Below, in pieces: positions 7,151 through 54,900 of a stretch of DNA of 64,000 bases. The notes under the pieces were generated by a model. The model was not told where the DNA came from. It made no database searches and saw nothing but the letters and a program-made list of their open reading frames with translations. Each line of letters begins with the position of its first letter. Within the stretch, counting starts at the first letter, position 1. Position numbers and translations under genes: made by a program. Origin of the DNA: Tridacna crocea (lineage: Eukaryota > Mollusca > Bivalvia > Cardiida > Cardiidae). Location: positions 11,318,119 through 11,382,118 of the forward strand of contig OX031071.1 in the NCBI GenBank assembly GCA_943736015.1. Reading direction: 5' to 3'.

Positions 7151-7157
7151 AATTTTT

Positions 7158-9031: not shown

Positions 9032-9230
9032 AAAACGCTATCACAAAATTTTTTTGAGTTAGTGCAACTTTGTTTAGGTTGTTATATGTTTTAAATTCGC
9101 GTTGTAACGTCTTTTAAAACACATTATTACGAGATTTTTCGCCTAGGTGCAACTTTCTTTTTGCCTTAAAAGGTGTTTTGAATTTACGTTATAAGGTGTT
9201 TTTGATAAAAATATTTTACCTTCTTTTTGA
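9032..9230. repeat. Degenerate ACGTTATTACG satellite, continuation after insertions
   Basis: Words such as CACATTATTACGAGATTTTTCG recur, matching the texture of 5985-6148. The 6149-9031 elements appear inserted into this array. Confidence 0.5.
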
Positions 9231-12492: not shown

Positions 12493-12720
12493 TTAACCCA
12501 TTACCACACAATCCCTACTTTTGACGCCCCTGACAAAGAAGCCTTTAGAAAACAATGTGGGAAAAGGAGAAATGCTGGTAACCAGCATTTTCTCCTTTTC
12601 CCACAATGTTTTCTACCCTTCACAAACCAAATTTCAAATTTTCAGCCACTTTTATTTTGTCGTCTGCAAATGCTTTCAATTTGGACAAGTCTAAAATATT
12701 GTCGTCTGGTAAGGGGTTAA
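12493..12720 (+). mobile_element. hpA element, complete
   Basis: TTAA stands at both ends. The hairpin pairs AATGTGGGAAAAGGAGAAATG with its complement, loop GGTAACC, and one A is lost from the left arm. Confidence 0.85.
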
Positions 12721-24009: not shown

Positions 24010-24238
24010 TTAAACCATTACCACAAAATCCTTACTTTTGACGCCCCTGAGAAAGAAGCCTTTAGAAAACATTGTGGAAAAAGGAGAAAATGCTGGTAAC
24101 CAGCATTTTCTCCTTTTCCCACAATGCTTTCTACCCTTCATAAAACAAATTTCAAATTTTCAGCCACTTGCATTTTGTCTTCTGCAAATGCTTTCGATTT
24201 GGACAAGCGTAAACTATTGTTGTTTAGTAATGAGTTAA
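24010..24238 (+). mobile_element. hpA element, complete
   Basis: TTAA at both ends; perfect loop GGTAACC. The right outer end is GTAATGAGTTAA. Confidence 0.85.
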
Positions 24239-27900: not shown

Positions 27901-30900
27901 CTACAAGCACTGTGTTGAAATGAGTATCTATGGAATAAAGAGTTAATGAGCCATGCTCTGGCAAAAGAGGGCTTATTGCATCCCTGTTATCCATGGTACT
28001 AAGCAAGCCATCACATAATTAACTTGTTACCAAACGACAAAATTTTGGACTAGTCCAAATCGAAAGCATTCGCAGACAACAACATAAATGTGACATCAGT
28101 GTTGGGAAGGGTAGAAAACATTGTGAAAAAAGGAGAAAATGCTTTTCCTACAATCTGTTCAATAGCTTTTTCATGGTTGTTAAACGTTGGGATTGTGTGG
28201 TAAATAGTTAGGGCCCTCTAATAACCACTTCTTTTAATAACCCACTTAACTCTTTACCACACAATCCCGACTTTTAATGACCCCCAGAAAGAAGTCTTTT
28301 GAAAACACTGTGGAAAAAAAAGAAGATGCTGGTACCCAGCATCTTCTCCTTTTCCCACAGTGTATTCTACCCTTGCCATCCCAAATTTTAATTTTTCAGT
28401 CGCCTTTATTTTGTTATCTGCAAATGCTCTCAACTTGGACCAGTCTAAAATTTTCTTGTGTGGTAAAGAGTTAATCCCAAGGTAGACTGGTCCTTGTGCA
28501 TGTAGAAAATTTACCAATAGCAAAAAGTTTCGGATAAGGTCAGCCTGCACTATGTTCTGGCAAAAGAGGACACTGTGATTATGCATTACGCCAAGCAGTC
28601 GTAATCATGGATCCATTAAAACCATCTTATCTAACAACCAGTGGAATTCTGGGGTAGCATGGTCCTTTGACATGCAGGAAATTGTTGAAAAGCAAAAAGT
28701 TTCAACCCATGAATGCACAGGCTGGCATGGGTCGATATGATAATTATTATGCAGAAGCATTAACTCTTTACCACACGAGAAAATTTTAGACTGGTCCAAA
28801 TTGAAAGCATTTGCAGAAGACAAAATAAAGGTGACTGAAAAATTTAAATTTGTTCTGGGAAGGGTAGAAAACACTGTGGGAAAAGGAGAAAATGCTGGTT
28901 ACCAGCATTTTCTCCTTTTCCCATAGTGTTTTCAAAAGGTTTCTTTCTTAGGGGCGTCAAAAGTAGGGATTGTGTGGTAATGGGTTAAGCCTCCCTTTCA
29001 AACAGCATGTCTCATATATATTGATATGTGATAAAAGTTATGTATTGTTCCAGGCAAGAGGCTTGACAGATCCTTCGAGAGAGCAGACAGACAACAGTTG
29101 CTCTGCGCACCCTTTGAGAAAAAAGATTATGTGGGAATAGATCCCGACTCAAAGTAAGCCCTTGTCTATCACATGAAAAATTGCGATGTTGTTTTGTATA
29201 TCATAGATCATCAGCCATAAGTTTGACCTTGTGTTCACTCTAGAGATTATGTTTTTAGACAAGGCTTAACAAAAAAAATATCAGTGTTTAGGGTTTTGGT
29301 TCAAGATGCTATGGGAAGTGATTTCTTTTTTTTTTTTCAGGGTTTTATTCACTTAGATCATATACTGAAATCTTATCAAGAAAAAGATTTTTTTTTTTTA
29401 ATTGTAGGGTAAAAAGTTTACAGTTGGCAGCATTTTCTAGGTAGGGTTGAGAAACCCGAAACACAGATAGTTTTTTTTTCTTCAGGCCCTAGTGTCCAAC
29501 ATGGTCTGATATATCTCAGATGAGAACAAATATGGGTCATATGGGATACAAAATTGGTCACTAGGTCAAGTGGTTTTGCATCTTTTTCAGTCCATATTCA
29601 TGCAAAAGTACAAAGGTGCAAATTAAGCAATCCTGGATAGTTTTCTGTGTATTTCTTTCAAAACCCTGGATAATGCAAATTAATATACAATGGTTATTTG
29701 TATTCCTGTAGATCCTTCCGCAAAAAGTGTCAAGGGCGTTTACGGAAGCATTTGGCTGACCTTTGTTTGCTGGCTGGTTTACCAGGGGAAGCGATTCTAC
29801 ACTACACAACAGCTTTAGATATTCTGAAACCAGTCAATGATTGGTTGTGGATGGGAGGTAACCTTTACTTGTCTGATTGACCTCCAAGGTCATGAGTGGA
29901 AATTGCCACTGTTGCGCAGACATACCAATCATTAACTACCCCATTATAGGGTCTGCAACACACGAAAAGGGGCATTTGAACATTTACGTAGACAATTCCG
30001 AAACGGCACTTTCTATTTTTATGTAATTTTCTTTGTTTTGCTCAAGTTCGAATGTAGCACAAAATTTATCTATGCAGATTGTTGAGTCTGACCTTGGAGC
30101 TGAGGCCCGGTAGCTCAGTCAGTACTGTGGAGGATTTGAGAATAGGGTGTCATGGGTTCGATCTCTGGCTCGGCCTGTTTCTTTCCGAAGATTGATAATG
30201 GTCATTGCAACAGGATTCATACCTCTCTCACCGCTGACCATTGCTTGGACGATGGTAATGGTGGAAAGCAGCCATTAGCTTTGAAAGAGAATTGTGCGGA
30301 GTACTGAGTGGTAAAAGAGACTGGAGGAAAGCACTGATAGGATCATTGGCCATAGCAGTATAGCTGAAATAATGTTGAAAGCGGATAGTGTTAAGCACTA
30401 TACAATCAATCTGACCTTGGATATGTACTGTCTGCTTGTTTAGTTAGGCCTGTAATATAGAAATCATTCAGTGTTTCAGTAGACTATGTATGTAAAGACA
30501 GAAAAGACCACTTGAGCTATGATAACTTGTCGTATACAAATTCTTGGATTCTTTACCAACAACGACGACAAAATACAATGTAAATTCGGCTTAAAAATTG
30601 AAAATTGTATTGTGGAGGGTAGCAAACATTGTGGGAAAAGGAGAAAATGCTGGTTACCTGCCTTTTCTCATTTTCCTACAATGTTTTCAAAAGGCTTCCT
30701 TCTGAGAGTCATTGAAAGTCAGGAATGTGTGGTAAAGAGTTAATAAGGTCAGGCTCAAAATTGTATTTGCATTACTTTTGATCATCATGTTTATAGTATC
30801 TTAACCCTTTACTCCATAGATACTCATTTCTCCGCATTGGTTGTAGGAGCCTTTGGAAAACATTGTGGCAAAAGGTGAAATTGCTCGTGACAAGCAATTT

Positions 30901-33900
30901 CACCTTTTGCCACAATGTTTTCTACACTATCAAAAGGTGTCATACACATTAAGAAACGGCTTCATCCTTGCTGTTATTTAGGATCAATCAGAGATACCAT
31001 AGAAATGCCTTGTGGGGTAAAGGGTTAATACTTTTTACATTTATTTATAGCTTGTTATGAAGGGTTGTGTTCAGCAGCTGTTGTAAACAGTGGAGGAGGA
31101 GCTCTGGACAATGGTGCAACACTACGCAGGAACCAGTCATTTTCTGTCAAGAGAGGCAACTCTGCCCTGGATAAGCAGATGGAGAAACACAGGGCAGGTA
31201 AGGGTGTTTTGGTGTGGTAAAACTTCTGTATCACTTTTAGCCCTTTTTGAGAAAATATCAAGGCATTGCTTGTATCATCATCTTGCAAAAACATTGAAAT
31301 TTTTTATTATATTTCTATCAGTGAATTACTGTGATTTTTCAGTGTATTATTTTTACAGTTTTCACAGTGAATAACATCACTAGTGATGATATAGTTTTGG
31401 AATGTTTGCAGGAACTACTCTTTTCCTATATGCTCACAGTAAAGATTGTGTTTCTGTCTATACTCCAAAGATCTTTGGTAAACAATAGCACAGTCAACAG
31501 ATTTTCGCTACAATCTTTCCAAACAACCCAGAGTTAACGGCTTTTTGGGAGAGATCTTTTTAAGATCTCGAGAAAAGAAAACAGCTTTTGTGGGAGAGAA
31601 TGGGGTTTGATATCGTTTAAAAACTCATCTTTCTGAATCGTTTTTCAACCCCATCACAGGCCATTCTAGTGACAGATTTTAACTCCTTACCACACAATCA
31701 CGACTTTTAACGAGCCTGGGAGAGAAGCCTTTTGAAAACATTGTGGGAAAAGGAGAAAATGCTGGTAACCAGCATTTTCTCCTTTTCCCACAATGTTTTC
31801 TACCCTATTAAAGACAAAAATTATCATTTGAGCAATATTCATTGCGTCATCTGCAAATGCTTTCAAATTGGACTGGTCTTAAATTTCCTTGTGTGGTAAA
31901 GAGTTAATATCACACACCCAGTTGATTATCATCTGTATACCGCTGTTATTACTTAAAGGTGGGTATTTAGATTTTTCACATCTCACCAAATTAAAAAGAA
32001 TGTATATCTTAGAAATTTATATGAAAAAACAATACAAATCATCAATATTTAAGAATCGTAAAATTGCAAAAGAAAGTTTTTTATGTTGTTCCCTTAAAAG
32101 GCTAAGTATTTTTAGATTTCATGCCAGAAATTAAAGAAGCATTGTTGGAATGTCAAGTGACTGGCAAGTGACTAATGACGCTTAATTTCCATAACATAAC
32201 CCAGTTAGGATAAGAGTGCCTCCATTAATCAAACCAAATTGCACCAAGAAAACGCATCATATTCGCAGTACTGCAGCACAGTCAGCTGAATTATTCAGTA
32301 CAAATCAAGAAAGTCTACTTTTTGCTTCAATCCATAACACAAGTCTGGTTATTTGAAATAGCTTTTGAGAAATTAGTACTTTAACTGACTGGGAATTTTA
32401 GCATCATATTATGAGAAATTCTTTCAGCAAAGTTGGGAAGCTCTCTCACCATAGTTGGGGAAAAATGATGCTTTGTGCAATTTGAAAGTCAATTTGAATA
32501 TTGGCCTCAATTATAGAAGGAAAAATAAGCTCTGAACATGAGTACATTTTGTTGTATTTTTATACTAGGAAGCATTAAACATCATACTGGAAGCTATGCC
32601 AATGGTCTACAAGATTTACCAGACCTTGCTGGGAAATCAACTCTAAACACCGAGGATCTTATTGAGAAGTACAAGGAGGCCATGATGTTTTACAGCAAGG
32701 TGAGCCGAGGCACAGTAGCTCAGTAATAAAGTCAAAGGACTAGTAATCAAGAAGTCATAGGCGAAAATATTTGTTAACCCTTTCCCAAACAGCAAATTTT
32801 GGACCAGATCAAATTCAAGTTTAAGTGAGGTGATTTGTTTTTTGAAATGGTAGAAAACGTTATGGAGAAAGGAGAAAATGGTTATTACCACCATGTTTAT
32901 ATCATTTTATGTATTCAAGAGGCCTGTACCTTAGTGTCTTAGAACTCATTGTTGTTTCTAACAAGGTTAACCCTTTCCCAAACAGCAAATATTGGACCAG
33001 ACCAAATTGAAAGCATTTTGCAGATGACAAATAAACAGTTGCTAATAAGATGATTTTTCTGTATGATAGGGTAGAAAACAATGTGGGAAAAGGAGAAAAT
33101 GCTGGTTACCAGCATTTTCTCCTTTTCCCACAATGTTTTCAAAAGGTTTCTATTCATGACCCGTAAAAAACCAGGGATTGTTTCGAAAAGGGTAAAGTTG
33201 TTTGCATGGGATTGTTTGGTAGAGGATTGACACATTGTCTACACTTGTTTACAATAGTTCAATGTTAGGAAATTTAATGTTTCTGAACATACCTTATCTT
33301 ACTTCTGATTTTGTTTTTCCACATTTTTAAATAGTACAAGAATGCAGGAATCATCGAAATGGAAGCCAGTTTCAAAGCTGCCAGGATACTGATACAGCAG
33401 AAGGTATGAACTATTCAAAGAGTATAGGCCCCAGGCCAATACGTCTGACCTCGGACCTGTAACTGGGCCAATACGAAATCACTTGATTAATGACAATTTT
33501 ATTAATTACCCTTTACCAAACAATCCCTGGTTTTTACGACCCTGAAAAAGAAGCCGTCTGAAAATATTGTGAGAAAAGGAGAAAATGCTGGTAACCGGCA
33601 TTTTCTCGTTTTTCCCACAATGTTCTCTACCCTGCTTGAAACAGATATCAATTTTTGGGTTACGTTTACTTTGCTGCCTGCAAGTGCTTTCAATTTGGAC
33701 CAGTCTAAAATTGTGTCCTTTGGTTAAAGTTTAACTGCTGGCCCAGATTCAATATGACAACCTAAGAGAAGTGAAAGTAGGGTTTCTTGAACACAATTGA
33801 TTAAAAGTAAGCGCAGATGCTCACGCGACTGAACTCTTAATCAACCACGTTCAAAGATTTCTGTATTGGTCGCAAGTCATCAATATTGATACGAGGTCAA

Positions 33901-36900
33901 CTGTATTGATTAGAGGTCAAGTCTTATTAGGCCGGGGTCACAACCTGCATACTATACAAAGTCAGAAAATGTTGCTAGTATCGCAAGGACCGGTTTCCAT
34001 GTATAACTCCTATATATCCAAAAGTTAATAAATGAATAGGCTGTATTAATTCTGTATCAAACATCAAGTGTGTCCAGGTAGCACATTGGTGAGCTTATCA
34101 GACTCATGTCATGGTGGTTGTTTGTTTGCTACCTGTTCAAGGGGAACTTTGTGTGGATTTTACGTCTCTCACCTCTATGCATGTGAGAAAAGTAGTCAGC
34201 AACATGGAAAGGTAGGTGTGTCAGTACTGGTGTGAGAAATCCAGGAAACACAGCTATAGGTGCACTTACCGCTGTGATATGACCTTAACTCTTTACCAAA
34301 CGACAAAATTTTGAACTAATTCAAATTGAGAGCATTTGCAGATGACAAAATAAAAGTGACTGAAAATTTGAAATTTGTTTTGTGAAGGATAGAAAACATT
34401 ATGGGAAAAGGAGAAAATGCTGGTTACCAGCATTTTCTCCTTTTGATACAATGTTTTCAAAAGCTTTCTTTTTCAGGGTCGTTAAAAAGTCGGGATTGTG
34501 TGGGAAAGAGTTAACTCATTACCAAACAACAAAAATTTAGGTTTGTCCAAACCGAAAGCATTTGCAGATGATACAATGAAAGTGACTGAAAATTTGAAAT
34601 TGGTTTTGTGAAGGATAGAAAACATTGTGGGAAAAGGAGAAAATGCTGGTAACCAGCATTTTCTCCTTTTTCCCACAATTTTTTTTATAGGATTCTTTCT
34701 AAGGGTCTTCAAAGGTAGGGATTGTGTGGTAATGAGTTCAACAAGACTCATCAAAAAAATATGAATTTCAAAATTTTAGACTGCTCCATGTTGGAAGAAT
34801 GTGCCATGGACATATGAAGTGAAGCTCAAGTGATTGACTTTGCCTGGAAACAGTGTTAAACACTGTGGGAAAAGGAGAAAAAGCAGAAAAAGCAATTAAC
34901 GCTTTCCCAAACAACAAATTTTGGACTCTTCCAAACTAAAAGAGTTTGCAGACAACAATTTTAGATTTGGAGAAAATGCCAGAAAGGTCTCAAACAGGGT
35001 TGAAAACACTGTGGGAAAAGGAGAAATTGCTCATTATGAGTGCTTTCAAAAGACTTTTACTGCACACACGTAAAAACCAGGGTTTTTTAGGGAAAGGGTT
35101 AACTCTTTATCGAAGGACAAAATTTTAGACTGGTCCAAATTGAAAGCACTTGCAGATGACTAACAAAACCTAACTCAAAAATTGAAGTTTGTTTCCAGTA
35201 GGGTAGAAAACAATGTTTTCAAAAGGCTTCTTTCTCAGGGTCGTCAAAAGTAGGGATTGTGTGGTAATGGGTTAACCAGCATTTCTCCCTTTCCCACAGT
35301 GCTTTCCACCCAACCAAAGAATTGAAGCTCATACTTACTTGCTTATTTTGAATTTGTGGTCTTAAATATTTTGAGTTTTGAAGAGACAAAAGAAATTTGT
35401 TTGGGATAGAGTTTGTGTCATTGTGTCGTCTACAAATGCTTTCGGTTTGGACAAACCTAAAATTTTGTCGTTTGGTAATGATAAAGTACCTTGTACCAAA
35501 TCACAAAAATGTAGGCTTGTCTAAATTAAAAAGATTTTCAGATGATAATTGAAATGTGGCTGCAATGATGGAAATTGTTCTTGACAGAGTAGAAAACATT
35601 GTGGGAAATGGAGAAAATGCTAGCCACCAGTATTATAAGATTACCTCAAGTTTATATCTGTTTCATAGTGAGTTTATTTGCAAGTATATACAAAATAGTC
35701 AATTATGATAATTCAACTATACAATAGCACATTTTTGTGTTTTGGAGGGTATTTACATAAATATACAAGTTATATGCAACAGATACATTTTTAATTAGAG
35801 CCATGCTGTGTGAAAAGGGGACTTAATGCATCTGCGAAAAGTATCAACCCAGGTCAGCCTGCGCAGGCTGACTGACCTGAGTCGATACTTTTCGCTATTT
35901 CTATATGTTCATGGGCCAGTCGCCCTCATGATTAAGTTGGTTGAAAAAAAAAAAAAAAAACTTGGATACTGTTGATCAACGAAATATGTGATACCTTGCT
36001 AGGTACCATGGTTCATGGAGATGCATTTAGCCCCCTTTTGCCAGAGCATGGCACATATATTTCAGGATATCGGTAAAGTCTTAAAATCTTAATTACAGTG
36101 CATAACTGTTTTCATGATTGAAAATTTTGAGATATGTTAGCAGGCAGTATGGTAATTGACTGGAAAAGAAAGATAGTTCCATGGATCATAGATTTGCAAC
36201 AACTTAGTCTGCCATTCTGAACAGTTTGTCAGAATTTATTTAACTCTTTACCACACAATCCCGACTTTTAACGACCTTTAGAAAGAAGCTTATAGAAAAA
36301 ATTGTGGGAAAATGCTTCTACTATTTAACTTTTTACCACACAAGCCTGACTTTTAATGACACTTAGAAAGAAGCCTATAGAAAACATTGTGGGAAAAGGA
36401 GAAAATGCTGGTAACCAGCATTGTCTCCTTATCGCACAATTTTTTCTACCCTTCCGAAATCAAATTCAAATTTTTCAGTCACATTTATTTTGTCATTTGC
36501 AAATGCTTTCAATTGGACCAGTTTACAAGTTTGTCGTTTGGTAAAGAGTTAACTCTCTCCCAAACAAGAAGATTTTAGATTTGTTTTGTTGAAAACACTC
36601 GTATACAACAAATTGAATTTGACTGAAGTGAAAGATTTTGTCTGTATTAGGGTTGAAAATACTGGTTACCATAATGTTCTCACCATCCCAGTTTCTCAGC
36701 ATTTTTAAAATCCAAGATTGTGTAAAAATGGGGTTAAAGTCCGATAGAGGAGTAAACAACTAATCTAAAAATAGAACTGTGGCTGTATATACATGACTTC
36801 GTTGATCCTTCGCCGTTTTATCATCCTGGATTCCTCACGTTTTTGTCCCACTAAATGTACCAGCTGCGAGTACTCGGGATGTTTATTCAGGAAGTAGTTG

Positions 36901-39900
36901 GGAACTTGTCTCTTGGTATTGTTTGTACGGTTTCTCTTGTTTGCAAACCATGATTTCACTTGACTGACGGTAATTGAGCACAATTCAGCTAGTGACTTTT
37001 TCTCTTCGTCTGTTGGGTAAGGGTTTGTGACATGATTGTCATACCAATTGTTTAGAACCTGTTTAGCACTTTCACTTAACATAGAGTAGCTTGGTTTTTT
37101 ATCTCCAGTTGTTGAGTCACAGTCATTGTTTTCTTTTTCTCCCATGGAAGAGTTGCTTTTTCTTTTGCGACCTTTACTGGTGTACTTGTATTTAATTGGA
37201 TGCTGGTTGCCTGTGATGGACAAAGTGTTAAAACAGCGGACTCGTTTGTTTGCCATCCATTTTTTAACCTGTCGTGTTGTAATACCAGTCATTTGAGCTA
37301 GTTGCTCCACTTCCTCTTCATTGGGGTAAGGATAGTTCACATGGGCATGATACCAGTGAGAAAGGATATTTGTGGCCTCCGCATTGAGCATTTTGTGTGT
37401 TCTGAAGACTGGGTTCTTTAGCTCAAGGTCTGTGTCAGAAGAGTCTGTGTTACTACTGACATTTGTTGAACTGTTTTGGTTGATATTGTTGTTTATAAGA
37501 TCAGTGTGTGGCTCACTCTCATCACAAACACTTTTTCTTTTTCTTGATTGATTTGTTTGGCTGTTACTGGTTCCTCTTTCTGGTATCCCTGGATTTGACC
37601 ACATTGTATGACTGGCTCCATGCTGTTGAATAGGATTAAATGTTGGAGATGGATTGGAAGAATAATTTCCCTGAATAGAGTTGACACTTGGATATGTAGG
37701 GTAGACCAGGGAATGATCACTGAAAGTTTGTGTTTTTGCTGGGAACTCTGGTGTTGAATTTGGTGTGTAGTATCGTCGTGACTCCGGTGTGAAATTGATT
37801 GATGGAGCTGAGCAAACCTTCTGCATATGAGACAGAGCCATGTTGATATTCTCTATTGGTAGAAATTTCATTGGTTGATACAGAGATGTCAGACTGAATG
37901 GCTGACTGGACAAAGTGGAAGGGCACTTGGCTTCTTGAATCTGACTTGTTGACTGTTTGGATTCTAGCATAACACTGGTATGTTCTGTGTTTGGACTTGA
38001 GTTAGACTTCACTGAGTCCAGGCTCATTGGTGACAGACAACTGCTTTCACTGGACGGTTTGTCAGAACTGGTGTTTAATTCTGGTGAGAAAGGCTGCTGT
38101 TCTTCAACTATTCCACTTTCCTCAATACATTTCTGTAGTAAATCTTCTACTGGAGCATCATTTGAGACGGACTGACTGATAGTGTTTGATTGAAGCTGTG
38201 TTGTCACACTTTGTTGTGTTGTTTTCGTTGCTAATGTTTGATTCTGATTCAGGTTTTCATCTTTTTCCACAGTTTCCACATCAATTTCATCAATTTCAAA
38301 ATCTTCCGAGTTAACACTCCAGTTGAGGTAGTCATCATCTTCCTTGGTATCGTCACTGTTGTGAAACTGAAGTTTTCTAACTGCAGTCATTTTCTCTTCC
38401 TGTTGAAGAAGTAGAGATGCTCCATCAACTTTTCCAGAAAGTTTTTCAACAAGTTGTTTTGAATTCTGTACTTTGTTTTTGTCATGCATGGTATCAGCTG
38501 ATGTTTGTTTTTGGTTCACATTTGTTACTGACTTTCTGATTTTGTCAGCTTTGTCTATAAGTTTATCCAGTTCTCTCTCTGTTTTATCAGCCAGGGATAG
38601 TCTTTCTTTGTCATAGTAAGAGTTGATGGTAGATTTTAGCTGTAGAGGGCAGGAGTTCAGTGCTTTGTATCGCTCCATCTCGGTGGTACCAACTTGTGTA
38701 CTGTACTCATTCTCGACAGTGAGACCATCTGCGCTTACAGCAGGATCAATTCGCACTTTCAGTATCTTATCTTGTAGGCTCATGTGTCGAACATAAACAT
38801 TATCACAGGTGTCGGTTTTAGCTGCTTGGCAAGACGTTGTTGATGTTGTTACTTTGTCACTGGTTGTTGGATTGAGCTGCATCAAGTTCCAACTGGTTGT
38901 AATCAGGTTGGCTGGCACTTGCATCTGGGGATTTAAGAGTACAAATAAGCAGTGCTCTATAAAAAGGTAACATAATGTGTATGCAAAAAGTTTGACCTAT
39001 GTCATCCTTTGCAGTCAGCAAATGCTGACATTGGTCAAATCTTTTACGCTAGTTGTGAATTTTCTGTTCATGGAGGGACTTTTCTACATCAGGATTTGTT
39101 CAATCTTTTTGACAAAATGGATTTTATGGGACAATAATTACATGTTGATGTGCTTGGTGTGATGCATTATGGAATTGCATGAACTCTTGAATGAACTTTG
39201 GATACCAACATTTTCTCCTTTCCTCTAAATGCTTTCAAAAGGTATTCTTCATCAGGGTTGTTAAAAAATGGTATTGTTTGGTAAAGGTTTAAAAGACTTG
39301 TTGCATCCCTGAGGCAAGCAGCTTTTGAAAACATTTGGATAAGGGAGCAAGGTATGTTAGTCCATATATCAAAAATACTTATGGAATTCTTTGTGTAATT
39401 CTTCAAGGTTTTCTAAATTTGAAAGTAACACAACCTCTGATTGGCTTAACCATTTGGTTCAGCCAATCAGAAGTTAAGTTACTGTCAAATTTAGAAATCC
39501 AAGAGAATAAGGAAAAGAATGTTCTTAAAGATCAATGGTTCATAGAGACTATAGAAAACTCACCTGTGTACATTCTTGTAGAAGAACCGATTGTAGATCT
39601 CTGAAAATGGCATTGCTCTTTAGTTTTCGGAGGTAAGATGGGTCATACAGTGGGCTCACATGCTGGCTAGGCGATGGCGAATACAACCCATAAAATGGGC
39701 TGCTGGGTGGGGTCAGACTGGGAAAGTTGAGTGGGCTAGGAATCACACCTGTAGAAAAGGGAAGGAAACTTTATGATTCTAAAATTCATAATGGCAGTCA
39801 GGTACTTTGATGCATGTTTGATATTTGAGCTTCTGAAAACATTTTGGCAAAAGGAATAGCTTCTCTTTTGTCATGAGAACCTATCTTTTATGAGGCCCAT

Positions 39901-42900
39901 ACTGTAGTGTTACACTGCTGAAATGACAATCCATGTAAAATATGTACATGCATCTTTCAAAATAAAGGAATGATGCAGAGCTCCAGATAGGGGGAGTGAT
40001 TTTGATTTTTAAATTAGAAATGGTATTTATTCTCCACCAAAGCCCATGTTGTGGGTACTCAGATTTGTCTCACCGAGACGATTCAAATAAGTACCCACAA
40101 CATAGTATTCTGAAGAGAAATAATGGATTCAGAATACCATCACTCCCTCTTATCTGGAGCTCTGATAATGTAAATCTCATATCTCGATAGGCGAGTGCAA
40201 CGCTATTCTAAGTGCCTGTACATTGTACAGGCACTTAGAATAGTGTTGCACTCACCTATTGATCTGACAACATTTCTGTCAATGGGTGATCTTGATCTAC
40301 ACTGTTATCAGAAGTAAATAACTCTACCAATCTTGAAAATTTATTGTCTATATTGTAAGTATAGGCAGACAAATTAATGGATTTTTTTCTTTGAAAGATA
40401 GAAAAACAGTGTGGGCAAAGGAGTAAATGTTGGTAGCCAGCATTTACTCCTTTTTCTATAATGTCCAAAAGCCTTCCTCCTCTCCTTAAACCTCAGGAGT
40501 GTGTAGTAAGGTTAACCCTTTACCACACAATCCAGACTTATAATGACCCGTAGAAAGAAGCCTTTTGAAAACGCTGTTGAAAATGGAAAAAAACACTTTC
40601 TCCTTTATCAGCATTGTTTTCTACCCTTCCCAAAACAATTTTCAGTAACTTCTCTGTTGTCGCCTTAAAATGATTTCAATTGGAACCATCTTAAATTGTG
40701 TCAACTTGAAAGTTATTACTGAGGACAGATGTGGCTCAAATGGTAACATTTCCTTGTGAAAAAGAAACATTGACAGGAAAAAGGAAAGAAACATTGACGG
40801 GAAAAATGAAAGAAACATGGAGGGAAAAAAGGATCACAGCATTTTTCTGAAAGGCTTCTTTTTCAGTTTTGTTAGATCTTTGGATAGTCTAGGAAAGGGT
40901 CTACCCTTTACGAGACAAAAAAATTTTAGCCATGTCCAAATTGAAAGCATTTGCAGATGACAAGTTCAGTATGGCTCAACTGGTGCAATGTTTCTTTGGT
41001 GAGGTAGAAAACATTGTGGGAAAAGGAGAAAATGCTGATTACCAGCATTTTCTCCTTTTCTTGCAATGTTTTCAGAAGGCTTCTTTCTCAGGGTCGTTAA
41101 AAGTCCCCATCGTGTTGGAAAGAATTAAGCCTTTCCACAACATGGAAATGTGGTAAAGAGTTAAATAAAATGGATTAGGACTAAATATCGAAAAGAAATT
41201 GTCCCTCTACCTACTAGATCTCTGAAGGGTAAAAAAGGTTTTTGGAAATATTGTGGAAAAAAAACAGAAATTGCTGGTAACCAGTATTTTATCTTTTTTC
41301 CCAAATTTCTTGCTTAATATTTAATTTTTGATCTGCAAAATGTGATACTTTCATGTGGAAAAAAAGAGAATAATACCATAAACATTTCTTTACCAAAGTT
41401 TTCTCTGCGAAAATGGGCTCTTGGAAACATTGTAGGAAAAAAGAAAATTCTGGTACTTTCAACCATTGACATAATTGTTTTTTTATCCCCCGCCGTAGGC
41501 GGAGGGATATAGTTTTAGCGTTGTCCGTCCGTGTGTCCGTCCCGGCAAATATCTCCAATACCATTGGACGGAATTTCGTGAAACTTTATACACATATACA
41601 ATGACCCATTCTCCCGAGACGGTTTTTTTGTTTTTTTGATTCGATGCAAAATGGCCGACTGAGAGCGATTTTAAGTTTCACTTAAGTTACACTTAAGTAC
41701 ACTTTTAATGTTTGGAGTCTTCTCTTCAAAACTATACAAAGTTTTTACATGGAACTTGTCACATCTGCCAACCTCCATTAGGAAATGCAGGAAAAAAAGT
41801 TTCACCTACATTCACCGTGCAACACCACAGTTATTTGCCCTTGTTTTTGTAATAAGGTGTCATGGAAAAAGGGGGTTTCATGTTATATTTCATTCCATTT
41901 CTTTTGAAGGCAACTCATTCCACATTTCTTGACGGAATTGAATAGAATTTTGACAGAATATTTCTTGTCATGTCACCTATTGCATATTGTCAACATTTTG
42001 CAATTTGTACCTGCGTCATGAAAAAAGGGGGCTTCATGTTTTATTTCATTTTTATTTCTTGTGAATGCAACTAGTCCCATATTTCTTGACAGAATTGAAA
42101 TGAATTGCACAGTGTTTCTCATCATTTGACCTATTGCATATTCTCAAGGTTTTACGATTTGTACCTGCGTCATGAAAAAAGGGGGCTTCATGTTTTATTT
42201 CATTTTATTTCGTGTTAATGCAACTCGTCCCATATTTCTTGACAGAATTCAATGGAATTTTCACAGAATGTTTCTTATCATCTGAGCTATCGCATATTCT
42301 CAAGGTTGTGCAATTTGTGGCTACATCATGAAAAAAGGGGGCTTCATGTTTTATTTTATTCTATTTCTTGTGAAGGCAACTCCTCCCACATTTCTTGGTA
42401 GATTTGAATGGAATTTTTACATTATCATGTGACCTAAGACAACACCTCCCACATTTCTTGGCAGATTTGGATGGAATTTTCACATGATCATGTGACCTAC
42501 GCCATATTGTCAAGGTTTTGGGATTTGTAGCTGCATCATGGAATACGGGGGCTTCATGTTATAATTTCATTTTTCACCTGTATCTCTTTAATTACAGGAC
42601 ATATCTCAACAGATTTGGACGAGATTTTCACAGATCATGCGACCTAGCACATGTTGTCAGGGTTTTGCAATTTATCACTGTATCATGGAAAAAGGGGACT
42701 TTATGTCAAATTTAATTATTCTTTGTCAGTGTATCTCCAAGTTTTATGAAATGCCAAGTTCTGCCAAAAGATACTTAATGTATAATCCTGTTATGGACCT
42801 CTTTTATATTTTTTTATCCAATGAAATCCTGTGCCATGGAACAAGGGAGCTTAATGTATAATTACTTCATGGACCAATAACAAAAAGGCCACATGTACAT

Positions 42901-45900
42901 GCAAAACAGAATACCTCCTATACGTTTGTATCAAAAAAAGGTCTTTTTCGGCGGGGGATATCATTTCAACGAAATTGCTTGTTCTTTTTAACCTTTGTGA
43001 GATGAATTATATTATTTCAGGCTCATGTTTGTCTCAGGACAATCATGACCTTAACAACTCTGAAAATGAAGAATTTAAAAAAAATATATGGTGGGAAAGG
43101 GAAAAAATGCTGGTTACCAGCAATATATTGTCCTTTTCTAACAATGTTTATTACAAATTATAATTTTTGAGGCATGTTTATTTTCTCATCTGATCAAAAT
43201 TTTTCATTTTTGGCAAGACTAAAACTTTGTCATTTGGTAAAGAATCAAAGTATTTTTCAGAGATCAAATTTGTATAAATCTTTACCAGACGACAAAAAAA
43301 ATAGACTGGTCCAAATTGAAAGCACTTGCAGACGACAAAATAAACCGAACTCAAAAACCAAATTTTTTACCAGCAGGGTAGAAAACAGTGCGGGAAAAGG
43401 AGAAAATGCTGGTTACCAGCATTTTCTTCTTTTCCCACATTGTTTTCAAAAGACTAATATCTCCGGGCCGTAAAAACCAGGGATTGTTTTATAAAAGGTT
43501 ATCAGGACTCTTTCTTGTAAGAATTCTCATGAAAAGGATTGTGTTCGAAGGATGAAAACATTTTTGCCAAAGAATTAACTTACTCAAAACAAGCAACATT
43601 AATCCTTTACTGTACAATGCCGCCTTTTGACGCGCCTGGGAAAGAAGCCTTTTGAAAACACTGTGGGAAAAGGAGAAAATGCTGGTAACTAGCATTTTCT
43701 CCTTTTCCCACAATGTTTTCTACCCTCTCAAAAAAAAGTTGCACCATTTGAGCCACACTGAAATACCGTATATCTCTGCAAATGCTTTCAATTTGGACAA
43801 GGCTAGAATTTTGTCGTCTGGTAAAGGGTTAATCCGTCCAACAGCAATATTTTCACATTTACTTTATGATTATGTCTTTACTAATCAACATTCATTCATT
43901 CATTTATTCGGCAAATCAGCACAAAACATGCTTTTGGCCATAACAATATGTTATGAAAAATATGGCAAAAACATAAAGACTCAATGAAATATGAAAATAT
44001 CATACAAAATAAAAAGTGACAACAAAAAGTGAAAGCGCTGAACGCTACAAAATTTCTGAGAAAGTGAAAGCTTCTGTTCATTTAATAGTAGACAATTGAA
44101 ATGTAACATGTATGTACATGTAACATTTAAAAGTGCATAGGAGTTTATGCTTACGCTCAAATATTTAAGTATAGTCAAAGATTAGTATCAACAATAGTTT
44201 ATTTTATAGTGACCCCGGTGGCACATATTTTCTCCTTATTCCACAAGGTTTTCTACCCTGTAAGGAATAAATTCTATAATTTGAGTCAAATTTTATTTGT
44301 CGTCTGCAAATCCCTTAATTTTGGACAGGCCTGCAATATTATCTTTTGGCAAGGAGCTAGCCCTGTACCACACGATCATAACTTTAACCCTTTCCCAAAC
44401 AAGCCCTTGTTTTTACGTGTCTGCAGTACAAGTCTATTGAAAACACTGTGGGAAAAGGAGAAATTGCTCGTAACGAGCAATTTCTCCTTTTCCCACAGTG
44501 TTTTCTACCCATTTGGAGAACTTTCTGCCATTTTTATCAAATTTGAAATTGTCGTCTGCAAACTCTTTGAGTTTGGAAGAGTCTAAAATTTGTTGTTTGG
44601 GAAAGGGTTAAATGACCCTGAGAAAGAAAGCTTTTGCGGGAAAAGGAGAAAATGTTGGTAATCGGCATTTTCTCCTTTCTCACAATGTTTTCTACCCTTC
44701 CCAAATCGTATTTCAATTTTTGATTCATGTTTATTTCGTTGCCTGCAAATCCTTTCAATTTCGACCTGTCTTTTTGTCTCTTGGCAAGGAGTGAAGAAAC
44801 ATTTAGATGATATTTTAGATTTTCATATTATTAACTATGTACCAAACTACAAAATTTTGGATATGACCAAATTGATAGTATTTGCAGACAACAAAATAAT
44901 CGCTGTTAACTGTTTACCACATAATGAAAATTTCAACATGTCCAGATTTAAAACATTTCCAGACAACAATTAAAGGTAACTCAAATTATGAAATTTGACC
45001 TAGATAGGGTAGAAAACATCAAGGGAAATTTTTCCTACATTGTTTACAAAAATTTCTTTCTGAGTGTCATTTAAAGTTGGGATTGTGTGGTAAAGGATTA
45101 AATGATGATTTCTATTTTTGATAGGATAGAAAACATTGTGGGGAAAGGAGACCAGCATTTTCATCTTTTCCCCACAATGTTTTCAAAAACCAATTTCAGG
45201 CTTGTTAAACTGGGAAGTATGTAGTAAAAGAGTTGAAAATCAATGGCTTTTATATGAAATATATTTTTGCATGCTTAATGCAGTCAGATCCAGAATGTGC
45301 AATGTATGATAAAGTTTCTCATTTAGCTTTTTAACCCATTACCACACAATCCCTACTTTTGATGCCCGTGAGAAGGAAGCCTTTAGAAAACATTGTGGGA
45401 AAAGGAGAAAATGCTGGTAACCAGCATTTTCTCCTTTTCCCACAATGTTTTCTACCCTTCACAAAACAAATTTCAAATTTTCAGTCACTTTTACTTTGTC
45501 GTCTGCAAATGCTTTCAATTTTGACCAGTCTAAAATATTGTCATTTTGTAATGAGTTAAGCTTGCAGAAGCATTACATGACTCCTTAACTTGTAAAAATT
45601 TTACGAGCATTATTCCTTTTCCTACAATGTTTAACTCTTTACCCCACCATCCCATGTTTTAAAGACCCTGATAAATAGTCTTTGAAAACTCTGAGCAAAA
45701 AGGAGAAAATGCTGGTACCCAGCATTTTCTCCTTTTCTCTCAAGGTTTTCTACTCTCTTACAGACAATTATCATCATTTCAACTAGTATGTTGTCTGAGA
45801 AATGCTTTGAATTTGGTGTTGTCTCAAAATGTATTGTTTGGTGAAGAGTTATGAAGCTTTTTCTTTCTGCCCTTTGGGTTTCTAGAACTCAGGATTTTGT

Positions 45901-48900
45901 AGAAAATGGTTGAAATACTAATGAAAGTTAGGTACTTACCAGGTGTTAGTGTATTAGCACTATAAGATCTGTTCATGCTGGGTGGAGCTGGTGTAGCAAA
46001 GGGCTGGTATAGGGGTTTTGAGCCCGCTGTCTCATGGCATGAACTTAGTCTTTGCACACTTAAATCCATCTTTATAACATTCGCTCACAGAAACACTGTA
46101 TGCTTATTAAGTTTTGAATATCAGTATCACAAATGTTTGTACATTTAACTCTGTATGATTTATTTGTATTCAGAAAGCAAGTTTTCCTGTACTGTTTAGT
46201 CTCCTTTTAAATGTCAGGAACCACTTTATTCATAAAAGTAAAGTTTTCTCCACATAAGTCATCATAGTCCAAAACAAATCACATAAATTTGTGTACAAAA
46301 GTCACAGAAGTAGATATATTCAAAACAGCTGAAACTATTTTCCCACTGTCAAAATGTTGTCACATTTCTTAGCACTGTGTCCCATAGCACCATGAGTATT
46401 ATCCCTGTACAGTGTACTCAAAATTCACTGATTGGTTGAGATAATCTTGATTGATTGACAGTTTTACTTCCAGAGCTTTATTTAAATTCAACAGTTTCAT
46501 GTATAGCTGATATAAATGTTTAAAGCACAAAAATTGTGTTCTGGCTTCCACATGGCCAAGAATGGTATATATCTAAACACATTTTGAAGGTCTCATCTAA
46601 ACCTTCTCAACTCAAGAACATGCCAGGGTTTTCAGTAATTGTAGTACAAACATCACACAAACATTAAAGCTTTTTTCCCATTAATTGCATAAAATTGAAT
46701 TAAAATAGCAACCTTTGAAACATGTGGCCATAAGTATGGTCTCAACACATTCTCTTTAAAAACAATGACCAAACTGGGAAAGGTATTAAACAATCACCTT
46801 TAATCACAAGTTGATTAGGTAATAAAAGGTCCTAGTAATTATCTACCTTTTATCAAAATATTGTTGATATAATTGGGCTTGATTGGTCTTTAATATAATG
46901 CAAACATCAAAAAAGGGAGTTTCTTAAGGTCCAGGAACAGCTTCTCAAGAATGCTGATCCTTCTTAGGACAGATTAAAGGAAATTAGGGATTAAATCTGT
47001 GATGCAGATATGAATCAGAAATGGGCCTCAGATACATTAACCCATTACCAAACGACAAAATTACAGACTGGTTTAAATTGAAAGCATTTGCAGACGACAA
47101 AATAAAGGGGACTGAAAAATTGAACTTTGTTCTGGGAAGGGTAGAAAACACTGTGGGAAAAGGAGAAAATGCTGGTTACCAGCATTTTCTCCTTTTCCTA
47201 CAGTGTTTTCAAAAGGCTTCTTTCTCAGGGGCGTCAAAAGTAGGGATTGTGTGGTAATGGGTTAACCCGTTACTACATAATCCCTACTTTTAACGACCTT
47301 TAGAGAGAAGCCTTTGAAAGCATTGTTGGAAAAGGAGAAGATGCTGGTAACTGGCATTTTCTCCTTTTCCCACAATATCTTGTACCCTTCCCAAAACAAA
47401 TTTCATTTCTTCAGTCATTTTAGTTCTGTCATTGCAAATGCTTTGAATTTGGACCTGTCTACAATTTTGTCGTTTGGTAGAGAGTTAACTCATTACCACA
47501 CAATCTCTACTTTAGACTACCCAGACAAAGAATTGTTTTGAAAACATTGTGGGAAAAGGAGAAAATGCTTGTAACCAGCATTTTCTCTTTTTCCCACAAT
47601 GTTTTCTACTCTTCACATAACAAATTTCAAATTTTCAGTCACATTTATTTTGTCGCCTGCAAATGCTTTCAATTTGGACGAGCCTAAAATATTATCGTTT
47701 GGTAATGAGTTAAATTGCATATGTCTTGCTTGATCTGATTGTGTGAACCATTCACCATTCATGCCGACACAAGACCAGAGATGAAGGCACTTGAAAACAG
47801 TGGTGCAAAAAGAGAAAAAATGCTGGTAACCAGTATTTTCTCCTTTTCCCACAATGTCTTCTACTCTTCACAGAACAAATTCCATATTTTCAGTTGCTTT
47901 TATTTTGTGGTTTGCAAATGCTTTCCATTTGGACATGCCTAAAAAATTGTCGTTTGGTAGTATTGGAAACCGTCAGTGTCTCCTTTTCCCACAATGTCTT
48001 CTACTCTTCACAGAACAAATTCCACATTTTCAGTTGCTTTTATTTTGTGGTTTGCAAATGTTTTCTATTTGGACATGCCTAAAAAATTGTCATTTGGTAG
48101 TATTGGAAACCGTCAGTGTCTCCTTTTCCCACAATGTCTTTACTCTTCACAGAACAAATTCCATATTTTCAGTTGCTTTTATTTTGTGGTTTGCAAATGC
48201 TTTCTTCTGGGACATGCCTAAAAAATTGTCGTTTGGTAGTATTGGAAACCGTCAATGTAAAGAAGACCAAAATAACGAAGGAGATAGTTATACAAAATAG
48301 AATGAAGACTTTATAAAATAAAAAGATACAAATGATCCTTGTTATAAACACTTTCTTTTTATTTCCAACAAAAAGCTTCTACTTCAGGGATGTGAAAAAA
48401 ATAGAAACCCTGTTAATTAACTCCTTACCACACAACAATTTTTTGACTAGTCCAAACTGAAAGCACTTGCAGACGACAAAATAAAAGTGGCTGAAAAATT
48501 GAAACTTGAATTGGGAAGGGTAGAAAACATTGTGGGAAAAGGAGAAAATGCTGGTTACCAGCATTTTCTCCTTTTCCCATAATGTTTTCAAAAGGCTTCT
48601 ACCTCAGGTTCGTCAAAAGATGCCATTGTGTGGCAGAGGGTTAACTCTTTACCACACAATCCAGACTTTAAAGACCCAGAGAGAAAAGCTTGTAGAAAAC
48701 ATTGTGAATAAAGGAGAAAATGCTGGTAACCAGCATTTTACTCCTTTACCCACAATATTTTCTACCCTGTCAAGTCAGTAGATGCTTTGTATTTGGTCCA
48801 GTATAAAAAAAATTGTTGTTTGGTAAAGAGTTATGATTGGAACATACATGTAACTCATAAGGAACAAATCTTTCCTACTTTCATACTGGACTATTTTCTG

Positions 48901-51900
48901 CATCAACCCCCAAAAATGTTAATTTGACCTTGGAACTACAATGTAGTTATAGTTGTTGTTGGTTGAGTCACTTCTTGGTATTTCACCATGCAGGGAGAAG
49001 TATAATAATAAAGTTATTTGTATTGTATTGTATTGATCATGAACTGAACTTTGACCTTATGTTTAAGTCATCCTGCCCGCCCGGGTGGCTCAGTGGTGAG
49101 TGCGTTGGGCTCATGACCTGGTGGTTGTGAGTTCGATACCCGGTTGAGGCAAACTTTCTTTCAGGCGTATTTTCGCCTCTCACTTCTGCTGAAGCATGTG
49201 AGAAAAGTAGTCGGTGGCTTTGGAAAGAAAGTAATGTTAGTACTGGTATGAGAAAGCCAGGAAACACATGTGCGTCACAGACCGCCATGATAATGACCTT
49301 AGTGGCTTTAACTTCAACACAATCAATCAATCAATTAAGTTATCCCATTTAACTTTTCTGTTTTCTCACTTTCTTGGAAACATCAAACAAACAAGTGTGA
49401 AACTTTTATATAACTTAATGACCACTTTATTAAAATGAACATATTTGATCTGTTTGACCAATCAACTTTTCCTTTAATGTATCAATTACCGTGTTGTGAT
49501 AATTACCAAGGTGTATATATCACAGTTAATCCATATGTTTGGACAGTTATTACAGGGCTTTTACTCTTTACCACACAACAAAATTTTAGACTGGTTCAAA
49601 TTGAAAGCATTTGCAGACGACAAAATAGAGGTGACTGAAAAATTAAAATTTGATATGGGAAGGGTAGAAAACACTGTGGGTAAAGGAGAAAATGCTGGTT
49701 ACCAGCATTTTCTCCTTTTCCTACAGTGTTTTCAAAAGGTGTCTTTCTCAGGGGCATCTAAAGTAGGGATTGTGTGGTAATGGGTTAACTCTTTACCACA
49801 GAAGAAAATTTTAGGCCTGTCCAAATTAAAAGCATAAATTTTGTAGATGACAAAATAAATGTGACCAAAAATTGAAGTTTCATTTGTGAAGGGTAGAAGA
49901 CATTGGGGGAAAAGGAGAAAATGCTGGTTACCAGCTTTTTCTCCTTTTCCCACAATGTTTTGAAAAGGATTCTTTTTCAAGTAGGAAGTTAAAAGTCGGA
50001 AGTCAGGATTGTGTTACCCTTTACCAGACGAAAAGGTAGTCATGTAGAAATTCAAAGCAGGTGCCAATTTGAATATAGCTCAAAAGGTGGCGTCTGTCTT
50101 TGATATGGTAAAAAACATTGCAGGAAAAAGAAAACTAGTTTCCAGCTCTTACCAGCATTTTCTCCTTTTCCCCACAATGTTTTCAAAAGGCTTCTTATTC
50201 AGGGTCATTAAAACTCAAGATGGTCTGGTCAAGGCTTATTCCCTTGCTAGACGATGAAAGTTTCAAGTTGCTAGAATAGAAAGCATTTTACAGGCAACAA
50301 GTTTGCTAAAATTTTGCAAATTTGCGGGTTAGAAAAAAAGGTGAGAAGGATGAACTTATGAAATGTGTTACACCTTTCTTATCGTCTGCAAATGCCTTCA
50401 ATTTGGACAAGTCTAAAATTTTGATCTCAATATGGACCACTCAACAATTTTGTACTGAGTAATCCATTACCAAACGCCAAAATTTTAGACTGGTCCAATT
50501 TGAAAGCACTTGCAGACGAAAAAAATAAATGTAACTCAAAAATTGAAATTTGTTTCCAGCAGGGTATAAAACATTGTGGGAAAAGGAGAAAATGCTGGTG
50601 ACCAGCATTTTCTCCTTTTACCACAAAGTTTTCAAAAGGCTTCTACCTCAGGGTCGTAAAGACTAGGGATTGTGTGGTAATGGGTTAAGTGGCCAGGAGT
50701 CAATATATGTAACTTCTGAACACAAAATCTAGTCATTGTTGCTTATATGTCATTAATTTTCTTTTTTTTGTATAATTTCAGAAATACTTGCCAGCATCAG
50801 AGTTTTTACAGAATGTTGTGTACATAAACCTGCAGCTTTCAGATGAAGATAGGGTGAGTAAAGAAAGATTTTTGCTGGGTCATGTAGCTGCCACATTGTC
50901 TATCCATTAACCTGTTACCACACAATTGAGACTTTTGACACCCCTGAGGAAGAAACCTTTTGAAAACATTGTGGGAAAAGGAGAAAATGCTGGTAACAGC
51001 ATTTTCTCCTTTTCCCACAAAGTTTTCTACCCCATCAAAACAAAATTGCTACATTTGAGCAACTTTGAAATTGTCGTCTAGAAATACTTTCAATTTGGAT
51101 AGGTCTAAAATTGTGCTGCGTGGTAACGGGTTAAACATCAGGGAACATTGGTTGGTTTTACTGTTGTATGGGTTGACATTGTTTTTACGGAAAGCAGCCT
51201 GCAGTATGGGATTGATTAGTACAGTAGCTGCCATACATTAAAAAATAATGTAATTGATCCAAATAATGTTATATTGGCTAAGTTACAAGTTTGAGCTTTC
51301 CTTTTCCTACAATGTTTGTAAAAGCTTTCTTAGTCAGGCTTGTAAAAACTTTGGAGTGTTCGGTATGTTAAAATTTTTTATTGTTAGGTTAACCCTTTCC
51401 CAAACAACAAATTTTGGACCCTTCCAAATAGAAAGAGTTTTTTTTTTTTTTTTTTTTTTAGCCACGTCAACTGGTATGATGGGAGTCGTGGCCATCTCCC
51501 ACCATACCTTACAATTCAATGTTAGTAGGTTTCTAAATAATTTGTTAGTATACTCTTAAACAAAAGATGTTTCATATGTCTAACAAAAATTGTATTTTTT
51601 GTAAAGTTGTTCTATTACTTGAATGTGGCCTTATTAAGAAAGAGAGAGAGAGAGAGGGAGAGAGAGTAGAAAAAACATGAAATAGATGTAAGTATGTGTG
51701 TGTGTGTGTGGGTGAGTGGATATGCGACTATGGAGTAAAGAAACTGGAATCTTTCAGAAATTTTATAGAAATTCGTTAATATTTACTACCTGTACACTAT
51801 ACTGGCAATAGGAGACTTTGATAAACATGTTCTACAATTGTCATGTGACATTTGTCAATTTCATGTGTGTTTGTGCATTTATGAATATTCAAGGTTAAGT

Positions 51901-54900
51901 TTAAAGTATTTTTAAAGCCGATCATTGAGGGTATTTTTTTTTTATTCCTACAGTGATAAATATATTTCTTAAGTTCTAAAAGTAGCCTGTCTAATGGTAC
52001 GTTTGATGTACGTGTGCCTAAAAGTAAAGTTCGACTATCAATTTGCAGTGTATGGTCAAAAGTACTAAAAATTGTTGCTATATTATTAATTAATGATTTG
52101 GTGTGTTCACAGTCATGAAATAAATGTAGAATAGTTTCTTCATATCGTTTACAAAATGTACATGAGTTAGTATCTATCAATTTCATTTTAAAAAGCAGAG
52201 AATTTGTTGGAATTATTCTGTGTATTATTCTTGTTTGAAACCACTGTGTATAAGTGTCTTTTGTGCATTTAAACACATTTCTATGAACTTGCTTCCAATC
52301 TATATTTATGTTGTTATATAATGAGTCCCACTTAACTCTGCTCGAAAGTATTTCATCGTTGTGTGTCAAAGTGTTATAAACATGTTTATTTATGTTACTT
52401 TTAGTAAGCATATGAAAGAAATAGCAACTAATAGAAGGATTATGACATCCTTTTAAAGCATCCTTTTTAATCAAAAATGTGATTTTTTGAAAGGAAAGTT
52501 TTAACTGATGTTGTAATGCTATAGAAATTTAAAAAATTCACTTTGTTTCTAGTCATTGTTTTTATGTCCAACCAATTTTTAAAACTTCCATCTACATTTA
52601 ACAAGTCCTTTACATATCTTATACCACAATCGTATAATATTTTGTTATAAATATGCTTAGAATCTACCAAAATATTGCTATTAAAAAACAGAGGCATGTT
52701 AACTACATCCAGCAATTTTGTAAAACTACATTTAGAGATAAATACCATAAAAGATTTTAAAACAAATTGAAAGAGTTTGCAGACAACAATTTTAGTTCTC
52801 AAAAAGGGTAGAAAACACTGTGGGAAAAGGAGAAACTGCTCGTTGCAAGCAATTTCTCCTTTTCCCTCAGTGTTTTCAAAGACTTTTACTGGAGACACGT
52901 TAAAAAACAGGGCTTGTTTGGGAAAGGGTTAAGTGTAGTTCTAAGCTTTTTTGTCTGAATAACTTGCAAAGACGTGGATAGTGTAGGTCCAAGATCTGAC
53001 TGCATGTTTTGTGCAGTCTTATCTTGAACTACACTCCTGGAAAGCAATTTAGTTCAGGCTCAGAACTGTAAGTGGGAACCAATAAGCATAATTATTTCAA
53101 AGTTAACTTTTTTTTTTTTCAGATTAACCGGTACGGTACCCTGTCTTCCCTTTATTCTGAGATTGGTTTCCAGCGTAAAGCTTCCTTCTTCAGACGAGTT
53201 GCAGCCATGCAGTGTGTGGCCCCACATAACCCAAAACCTAACTGGTACCTCTGCCACCAGTTGCTGGTTCAAGCTTTAGCAGGATACAGAATTTATCTGG
53301 ATCCCAGGGAGAGTACAGTACGACCAGGTGACTCGAAGTAGATTTAGGACAATGTTTATGTCAGATGAACTCTTACAGCACAAATAAAACTTTTTGGTCT
53401 ATAAAAAGTGATAGTAGCAGTGATGAACTCCATATTACACAATGTCAAGTGTTAACAACCCTTGATGAAGGCTTTTGAAAACATTTTGGGACAAGAAGAA
53501 AATGCTGGTAACCTGCATTTTCTTCTTGTCCCAAAATGTTTTTTTTTACCTTATCAAAGACAGTTTTTATCATTTGGGCAACATGTATTTTGTCAGCTGT
53601 CAATGCTTTCAATTTGGTCTGGTGCAAAAGATTTGTGACTTGGTAAAGAGTCAAGACGCCAATCTGCCAAGTGATCACTAAATACAGACAATAGACTTAG
53701 GCCTCCAACTTTCCAAATGTTATGGAGCACTATCTTTAACACAGCATTTAACATTATTCCAGCAATATTGTGGCAGCCAATGCACCTATTCTTGCTTTCT
53801 TGGAATTTTCTTTTACCAGTGCTCTGCACAATATTCTTTCCAAGCCACTGGCTGCTATGATGCAACTGAAATAATGCAGAAAGCAGCATCAAACACCATA
53901 CAAACAAGCAAACCTATATAGTGTTTATCAATCAATCCTAAGTTTCAATAACCTGAAGCAAATACACTTTTTAACCCATTACCACACAATCCCTACTTTT
54001 GACGCCCCTGAGAAAAAAGCCTTTTGAAAACACTATGGGAAAAGGAGAAAATGCTGGTAACCAGCATTTTCTCCTTTTCCCACAGTGTTTTCTACCCATC
54101 CCAGAACAAATTTCTATTTTTTAGTCACCTTTATTTTGTCGTCTGCAAATACTTTCAATTTGAACCAATCTAAAATTTTCTCGTGTGGTAAAGAGTTAAA
54201 ACTTTCTCCTATTCTTACAACTTGTTTTACCATTTCTGAAACTTTCCACAGTTTAAATAAAATTTGATTTTTTTTTCTGCAAATGCTTTCAATGTGGAAG
54301 ACAAAATTTTACACTTGTCCTACTTTTAAATATCTGTACACAATAAATCAATTGTGATTAAAATATCAGGATTTGCTGTTAGATGTATAGAAAACATTTT
54401 TGAAAAAGGTGAAACTGTTGGCAAGCATTGGGAGAAAAAGAGAAGGTGGTGGTTGCAATATTTTTGTCCTTTCCACAATGTGTTGATACATCCTCTTCCA
54501 CAAGGTCATTGAAACATGATCAGATCTTGTCTGTAAATGGGTTGTTAAGATCATTTGTGTCTCTGACATGGGCACATAGAATTTTTTTTTCTGATTGCAG
54601 ATTGTATAAATGGCTGGCCTGTGATACAAACTAGAGTATTACATGAACTAATTTATTCTGCAAGACGTATGGGAAATTTACAGATAGCTGTAAGGTAAAA
54701 TGTACTCTGAATGCAACTTCAATTGGATGTTCAAAATGTTTTACTAAGCTTTCAACAGTTCTTCTAGTGGTTTGTCATGGCAACAACTTGCTTGTTTATT
54801 TTTCTACCCGCCCGCCCAGTGGCCCAGTGGTGAGCGTGTCAGACTCATGACCTGGAAGTTGTGAGTTCGATACCCAGTTGAGGCGAACTTTCTTTCTGGC

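Follow-up and report, generated by a model that had tools for sequence, protein, structure and literature searches.

The closest described relatives of the gene considered here, which lies in a 64,000-nucleotide stretch of Tridacna crocea contig OX031071.1 (the window), are two-homeodomain TALE genes of molluscs and annelids. A clade of such genes, TALE-IV, was published in 2018 by Barton-Owen et al. (PMC6118893), and includes Crassostrea gigas TALE7, 8 and 14, Pinctada fucata TALE-IV A and B, Nipponacmea SPILE-B and annelid genes. Its describers state that no TALE gene had previously been known with more than one homeobox, and they report annelid relatives whose second homeodomain is degraded. 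The name SPILE is credited to Morino et al. 2017. According to Morino et al. 2021 (PMC8524836), every B-clade SPILE gene has a pair of homeodomains, and most also have a PADRE-like region, which is a little longer than is typical; the name PADRE was given by Paps et al. (PMC5322547) to a conserved region of about 87 residues. The B clade counts a single gene in each of two limpets and two to three genes in each of three bivalves. B-clade genes are expressed in 16-cell mussel embryos, and in relatives SPILE-B is expressed zygotically in the second quartet or in 2d (PMC8524836).

The window carries a gene of this make-up on its minus strand, very probably one more member of the published TALE-IV/SPILE-B family rather than a gene of a new kind. 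It is very probable that the locus is a functional gene of this spiralian-specific TALE family, most likely encoding a zygotic transcription factor of the early embryo. An open frame with two homeodomains, a splice-consistent exon model, a PADRE-like region, a modestly supported SPILE-like grouping of its homeodomains and nesting within another gene were all observed at this locus. A preliminary description of the window had supposed the architecture to be undescribed, but the same tandem arrangement is present in both papers (PMC6118893, PMC8524836), and an undescribed two-homeodomain class of TALE gene was rejected on their account. The features of the gene are as follows.

45940..46069, minus strand: coding exon 1, 130 nt, with an ATG start and a GT donor, joined in frame with exons 2 and 3
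39564..39748, minus strand: coding exon 2, 185 nt, with AG and GT borders, joined in frame
36765..38924, minus strand: coding exon 3, 2160 nt including the stop, placed by open frame, Pfam matches and join
38562..39623, minus strand: PADRE-like region, residues 86–226, interrupted by intron 2 after residue 105
37221..37409, minus strand: homeodomain 1 (HD1; TALE), residues 611–673, with W48 M49 A50 N51, placed by Pfam, residue numbering and AlphaFold
36912..37100, minus strand: homeodomain 2 (HD2; TALE), residues 714–776, with W48 F49 A50 N51, placed by Pfam, residue numbering and AlphaFold

Exon 3 encodes HD1 and HD2 as well as most of the PADRE-like region, and its frame is open without interruption for 743 amino acids from stop to stop (36765..38996, minus strand). 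The Pfam profile Homeobox_KN matched two stretches of this frame (whole-protein E-value 5e-32, 109.9 bits against a cut-off of 24) and the profile Homeodomain also matched two (E-value 2.4e-17), which excludes a chance match. The best Homeobox_KN stretch, residues 651–690 of the open-frame protein P0001, is HD2. Both domains align without gaps to PBX1 and EXD and carry the three-residue loop extension of TALE proteins (P-Y-P). Residues W48, N51, R53 and R55 are retained in each, residue 49 is M in HD1 as against F in HD2, and over 49 columns of their cores the two domains share 49% identity. By canonical homeodomain boundaries, a linker of 40 residues separates them. These results agree with the preliminary description in its reading of two complete TALE homeodomains in one exon, with the conserved W, N and R of helix 3 and with W-M-A-N in one and W-F-A-N in the other, and with its view that the duplication is not recent; the Homeobox_KN search it proposed matched both domains. 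The distance of 45 residues that it gave between the two domains compares with the 40 found here. An AlphaFold model of a 249-residue piece, made without an alignment, has helices at 45–57, 66–76 and 80–101 in HD1 and at 148–160, 169–178 and 183–200 in HD2. It provides no reliable mutual arrangement of the two domains (mean predicted local distance difference test score, pLDDT, 63.2; predicted TM-score, pTM, 0.29), and structure comparison of this model hardly tests HD2.

The three exons (46069..45940, 39748..39564 and 38924..36765, minus strand), with GT donors and AG acceptors, join in frame to encode 824 residues, the same length as the protein modelled in the preliminary description. A PADRE-like region near the N-terminus is followed by a long middle part with no Pfam domain and then by the two homeodomains near the C-terminus. 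Exons 1 and 2 are predicted solely from splice signals and reading frame. The window is part of contig C16 (43.5 Mb) in an assembly of 31 contigs and 1.05 Gb.

Four other genes of the same genome (L028, L030, L031 and L033) have a common region upstream of the homeodomain, which was taken for the PADRE domain. The PADRE-like profile is a hidden Markov model of hand-picked segments from these four genes and not of published PADRE sequences; another gene, L032, was left out since no such region was seen in its open frame. Against the window protein the profile scored 24.8 bits, whereas 500 shuffles of the first 540 residues reached at most 9.7 bits. The exon 3 part by itself scored 28.2 bits (best shuffle 9.6), more than the first 540 residues together. 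Measured against its own-genome paralogues, the window gene has a PADRE-like region upstream of the homeodomains, as do most B-clade genes.

That a single uninterrupted frame of 743 codons spans HD1, HD2 and most of the PADRE-like region argues against an artefact of assembly or gene modelling, in which two adjacent single-homeodomain genes, or a collapsed duplication, would have been taken as one gene. HD1 and HD2 differ at half of their core residues (49% identity), and genes built in the same way have been published from several species (PMC6118893). The splice-based prediction of exons 1 and 2, and an exon 2 with no family signal, would fit an artefact, which we nevertheless consider extremely unlikely.

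The genome holds 25 Homeobox_KN matches, a lower bound as are all such genome-wide counts. Two of them fall in the window gene, and none of the rest belongs to another complete two-homeodomain TALE gene. A homeodomain of the W-F-A-N-K-R type was found in five further genes, on contigs C10 (L028), C12 (L030 and L033), C13 (L031) and C3 (L032). This makes six SPILE-like genes, one with two homeodomains and five with one, compared with 12 to 13 in three bivalves (sums of Table 1, PMC8524836); some members may escape a count based on Homeobox_KN exons.

A tree was inferred from 18 homeodomains and 49 columns, its rows being own-genome sequences together with PBX1 and EXD only. Sixteen of the 25 own-genome matches were used and nine were left out: L003, with a core identical to L002; L024, L025 and two exons on contig C2, which are partial; L027; and L022, L023 and L034, which look like, and which we take to be, SIX-class genes. 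The names IRX, MKX, MEIS, PKNOX and TGIF given to other rows are likewise our assumption. The seven SPILE-like homeodomains, a group named after its sequences had been inspected, are separated from the other rows by a branch with support 77/71, suggesting with modest support that the window homeodomains belong with the other SPILE-like homeodomains of the genome. In relatives sought outside the genome, none of 14 pattern matches in viral contigs and none of 44 in genome contigs was confirmed.

Within the tree, HD2 pairs with the SPILE-like homeodomain of C10 (L028; support 61/0), to which it is 59% identical, as against 49% to HD1. If the pairing were real, the gene might have arisen by fusion of two SPILE-type genes, with HD1 from one lineage and HD2 from the C10 lineage, rather than by doubling of a homeodomain. 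The pairing is unsupported, however; HD1 and HD2 as sisters were not rejected (approximately unbiased test, p-AU 0.362), and 49 columns are too few. A fusion is possible but on the whole unlikely, and since it concerns only the origin of the gene it is compatible with membership of TALE-IV/SPILE-B.

An independent origin of a two-homeodomain TALE gene is on record in the discussion of PMC6118893. Helobdella robusta TALE-XIX A, a noncanonical TALE gene, has two homeodomains like the window gene, but its describers think that it acquired its second homeobox independently of the TALE-IV gene, in a leech expansion. The window gene could similarly be a lineage-specific gene that merely resembles TALE-IV; in the own-genome tree HD1 and HD2 do not come together, and support within the SPILE-like group is low. 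Against this, the upstream PADRE-like region matches the published make-up of B-clade genes (PMC8524836), and a mollusc genome is where such genes are expected. We regard a separate origin as very unlikely.

Several points weigh against assignment to SPILE-B. The orthology is drawn from the architecture, from a PADRE-like region defined within the same genome and from a 49-column own-genome tree with modest support. Exon 2 alone, scored with the PADRE-like profile alongside 500 shuffles of itself, did not rank in the top 6, so the region supports the family and not the splice between exons 2 and 3; its use as support for that splice was rejected, the signal being carried by exon 3. Only one two-homeodomain TALE gene was found here, in contrast to the two to three B-clade genes of three bivalves. 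HD1 has a much longer branch than HD2 (1.04 against 0.36), and with this branch and its M49 it may bind DNA weakly.

Expression, like the family and its two-domain architecture, is taken from the papers on relatives, and by analogy with them the window gene would encode a transcription factor made zygotically in the early embryo that helps set the identity of second-quartet blastomeres (2d in bivalves). Since the key residues of the helix that reads DNA are intact in HD1 and HD2 alike, a single chain could occupy one TALE half-site or two, and the two linked domains may sit on neighbouring half-sites simultaneously. The greater divergence of HD1, together with the annelid relatives that have a degraded second homeodomain, argues against simultaneous docking, and those relatives (PMC6118893) indicate that two domains are not always needed. 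A more elaborate proposal is that SPILE-B arose from joined homeodomains of two spiralian TALE lineages and acts in second-quartet cells as a one-chain dimer on composite two-site elements, with an HD1 preference that drifted with M49 and an old, conserved nesting in TRAPPC9; taken as a whole, this is distinctly unlikely.

Compared by description, most members of the lophotrochozoan TALE-IV clade resemble the window gene in that a single protein carries two TALE homeodomains. The B-clade genes SPILE-3, -4 and -5 of Mytilisepta virgata share with it the two homeodomains and an upstream PADRE-like region. The list of TALE subclasses named in the preliminary description (PBC, MEIS, IRO, TGIF and MKX, with one homeodomain each) omits the noncanonical spiralian clades, among which TALE-IV/SPILE-B is the one with two homeodomains. 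DUX4 and other double-homeobox genes of the PRD class also have two homeodomains per chain, and DUX4 was among the sequence and structure matches; its sequence match is much weaker (E-value about 1e-4) than those of PBX, EXD and MEIS (about 1e-10 or better). Homeodomains of DUX and the PRD class lack the three-residue loop extension. Membership of DUX was rejected, both window domains being TALE by Homeobox_KN. The locus adds a chromosome-scale example of the two-homeodomain TALE family, with a proposed exon structure and a genomic context.

That context is an intron of TRAPPC9. The gene (36765..46069, minus strand) lies antisense to its host within the intron 33404..50781 (about 17.4 kb), which is flanked by these host exons.

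29712..29857, plus strand: TRAPPC9 exon upstream of the nested gene, Pfam E-value 1.2e-8 (frame 29674..29877), joined in frame
32569..32699, plus strand: TRAPPC9 exon, an in-frame continuation with no Pfam match alone, part of the joined model
33335..33403, plus strand: last TRAPPC9 exon before the host intron, AG and GT borders, in frame on both sides, part of the joined model
50782..50853, plus strand: first TRAPPC9 exon after the host intron, in frame on both sides, with no Pfam match alone
53123..53327, plus strand: TRAPPC9 exon downstream of the nested gene, profile positions 463–495, E-value 0.043, below cut-off, part of the joined model

Nine open frames were scanned with the Pfam profile TRAPPC9-Trs120, and three matched it in profile order on both sides of the nested gene: 29674..29877, plus strand (profile positions 255–301, E-value 1.2e-8, above cut-off), 53072..53338 (463–495, E-value 0.043, below cut-off) and 58357..58632 (693–762, E-value 4.1e-4, below cut-off). 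The other six gave no match, including the 279-codon frame 26721..27557, which had been read by eye as TRAPPC9. The exon at 33335..33403 was first picked out through a motif that we took to be that of human TRAPPC9. At the DNA level the five exons, with AG/GT borders, join in one open frame, and 202 residues, nearly the whole of the joined protein, matched the profile with an E-value of 6.4e-12 and 44.2 bits (cut-off 24.7). A second joined piece, of two exons within 58406..60496, reached 23.4 bits, just below the cut-off. A genome-wide search for the TRAPPC9 family matched one place, 29719..29856 of the window. Solved structures searched with two single TRAPPC9 open frames gave chance-level matches only. 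The antisense nesting in a TRAPPC9 intron reported in the preliminary description is upheld by the ordered host exons on both sides and by a joined model above the Pfam cut-off. The nesting may be new, but it is no more than genomic context. TRAPPC9 was not mentioned among the papers listed by a limited literature search, a thin basis for calling the nesting unreported.

The genome-wide homeodomain search gave several further observations. The only other close pair of matches, on contig C2, was rejected as a second two-homeodomain gene, being two copies of one PBX-type exon in tandem, 761 bp apart (L029 4676 and 5437; G000:C2:67588675 and 67589436). Each copy encodes the first three quarters of a PBX-type homeodomain, with AG before it and GT after it, and the 47 codons compared have 21 silent differences and 5 residue changes. 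The two exons could be mutually exclusive and under selection; no following exon was seen for the pair. L027 on C10, with several homeodomains in one frame, was set aside as not TALE, and has the look of a gene that we take to be of Zfhx type. L001 (G000:C11:5679965..5680084) has a MEIS-like homeodomain in a single open frame of 517 codons, whereas the MEIS-like L024 and L025 are short exons, and is possibly a retrocopy.

The window is also rich in copies of a TTAA-flanked element of 228–230 bp, which has inverted ends and, at its centre, a near-perfect palindrome. Its 35-bp core occurs 39 times in the 64 kb (up to 3 mismatches; 0 expected), for example at 5400..5434, 24081..24115 and 47160..47194, and five pairs of ends delimit full elements:

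5329..5558: full palindromic element
12493..12720: full palindromic element
44384..44611: full palindromic element
47037..47265: full palindromic element
59942..60170: full palindromic element

Across the genome there are 166,719 exact copies of the core (83,140 forward and 83,579 reverse). In a set of 164 copies, chosen by their inner 35 bp, the centre is better conserved (mostly 0.85–0.98 per column) than the rest (about 0.4–0.93). The TTAA and CCC ends suggest a miniature inverted-repeat transposable element of the piggyBac type. At 47795..48297 of the window, repeated peptide frames suggest a few head-to-tail units of about 140 bp that resemble part of the palindromic element.

Contig C31 (L042–L044), with 29,009 bases, is mitochondrial, with a COX1 match (E-value 1.3e-120) containing three internal TGA codons. 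Bases 5001–10000 of the contig read N, and a search of three of its pieces for tRNA genes (ARAGORN, bacterial code) found none. Those of its long frames that were recognised by eye as mitochondrial genes are on one strand, which would fit a bivalve but does not prove one. The length of the contig is large for animal mitochondrial DNA.

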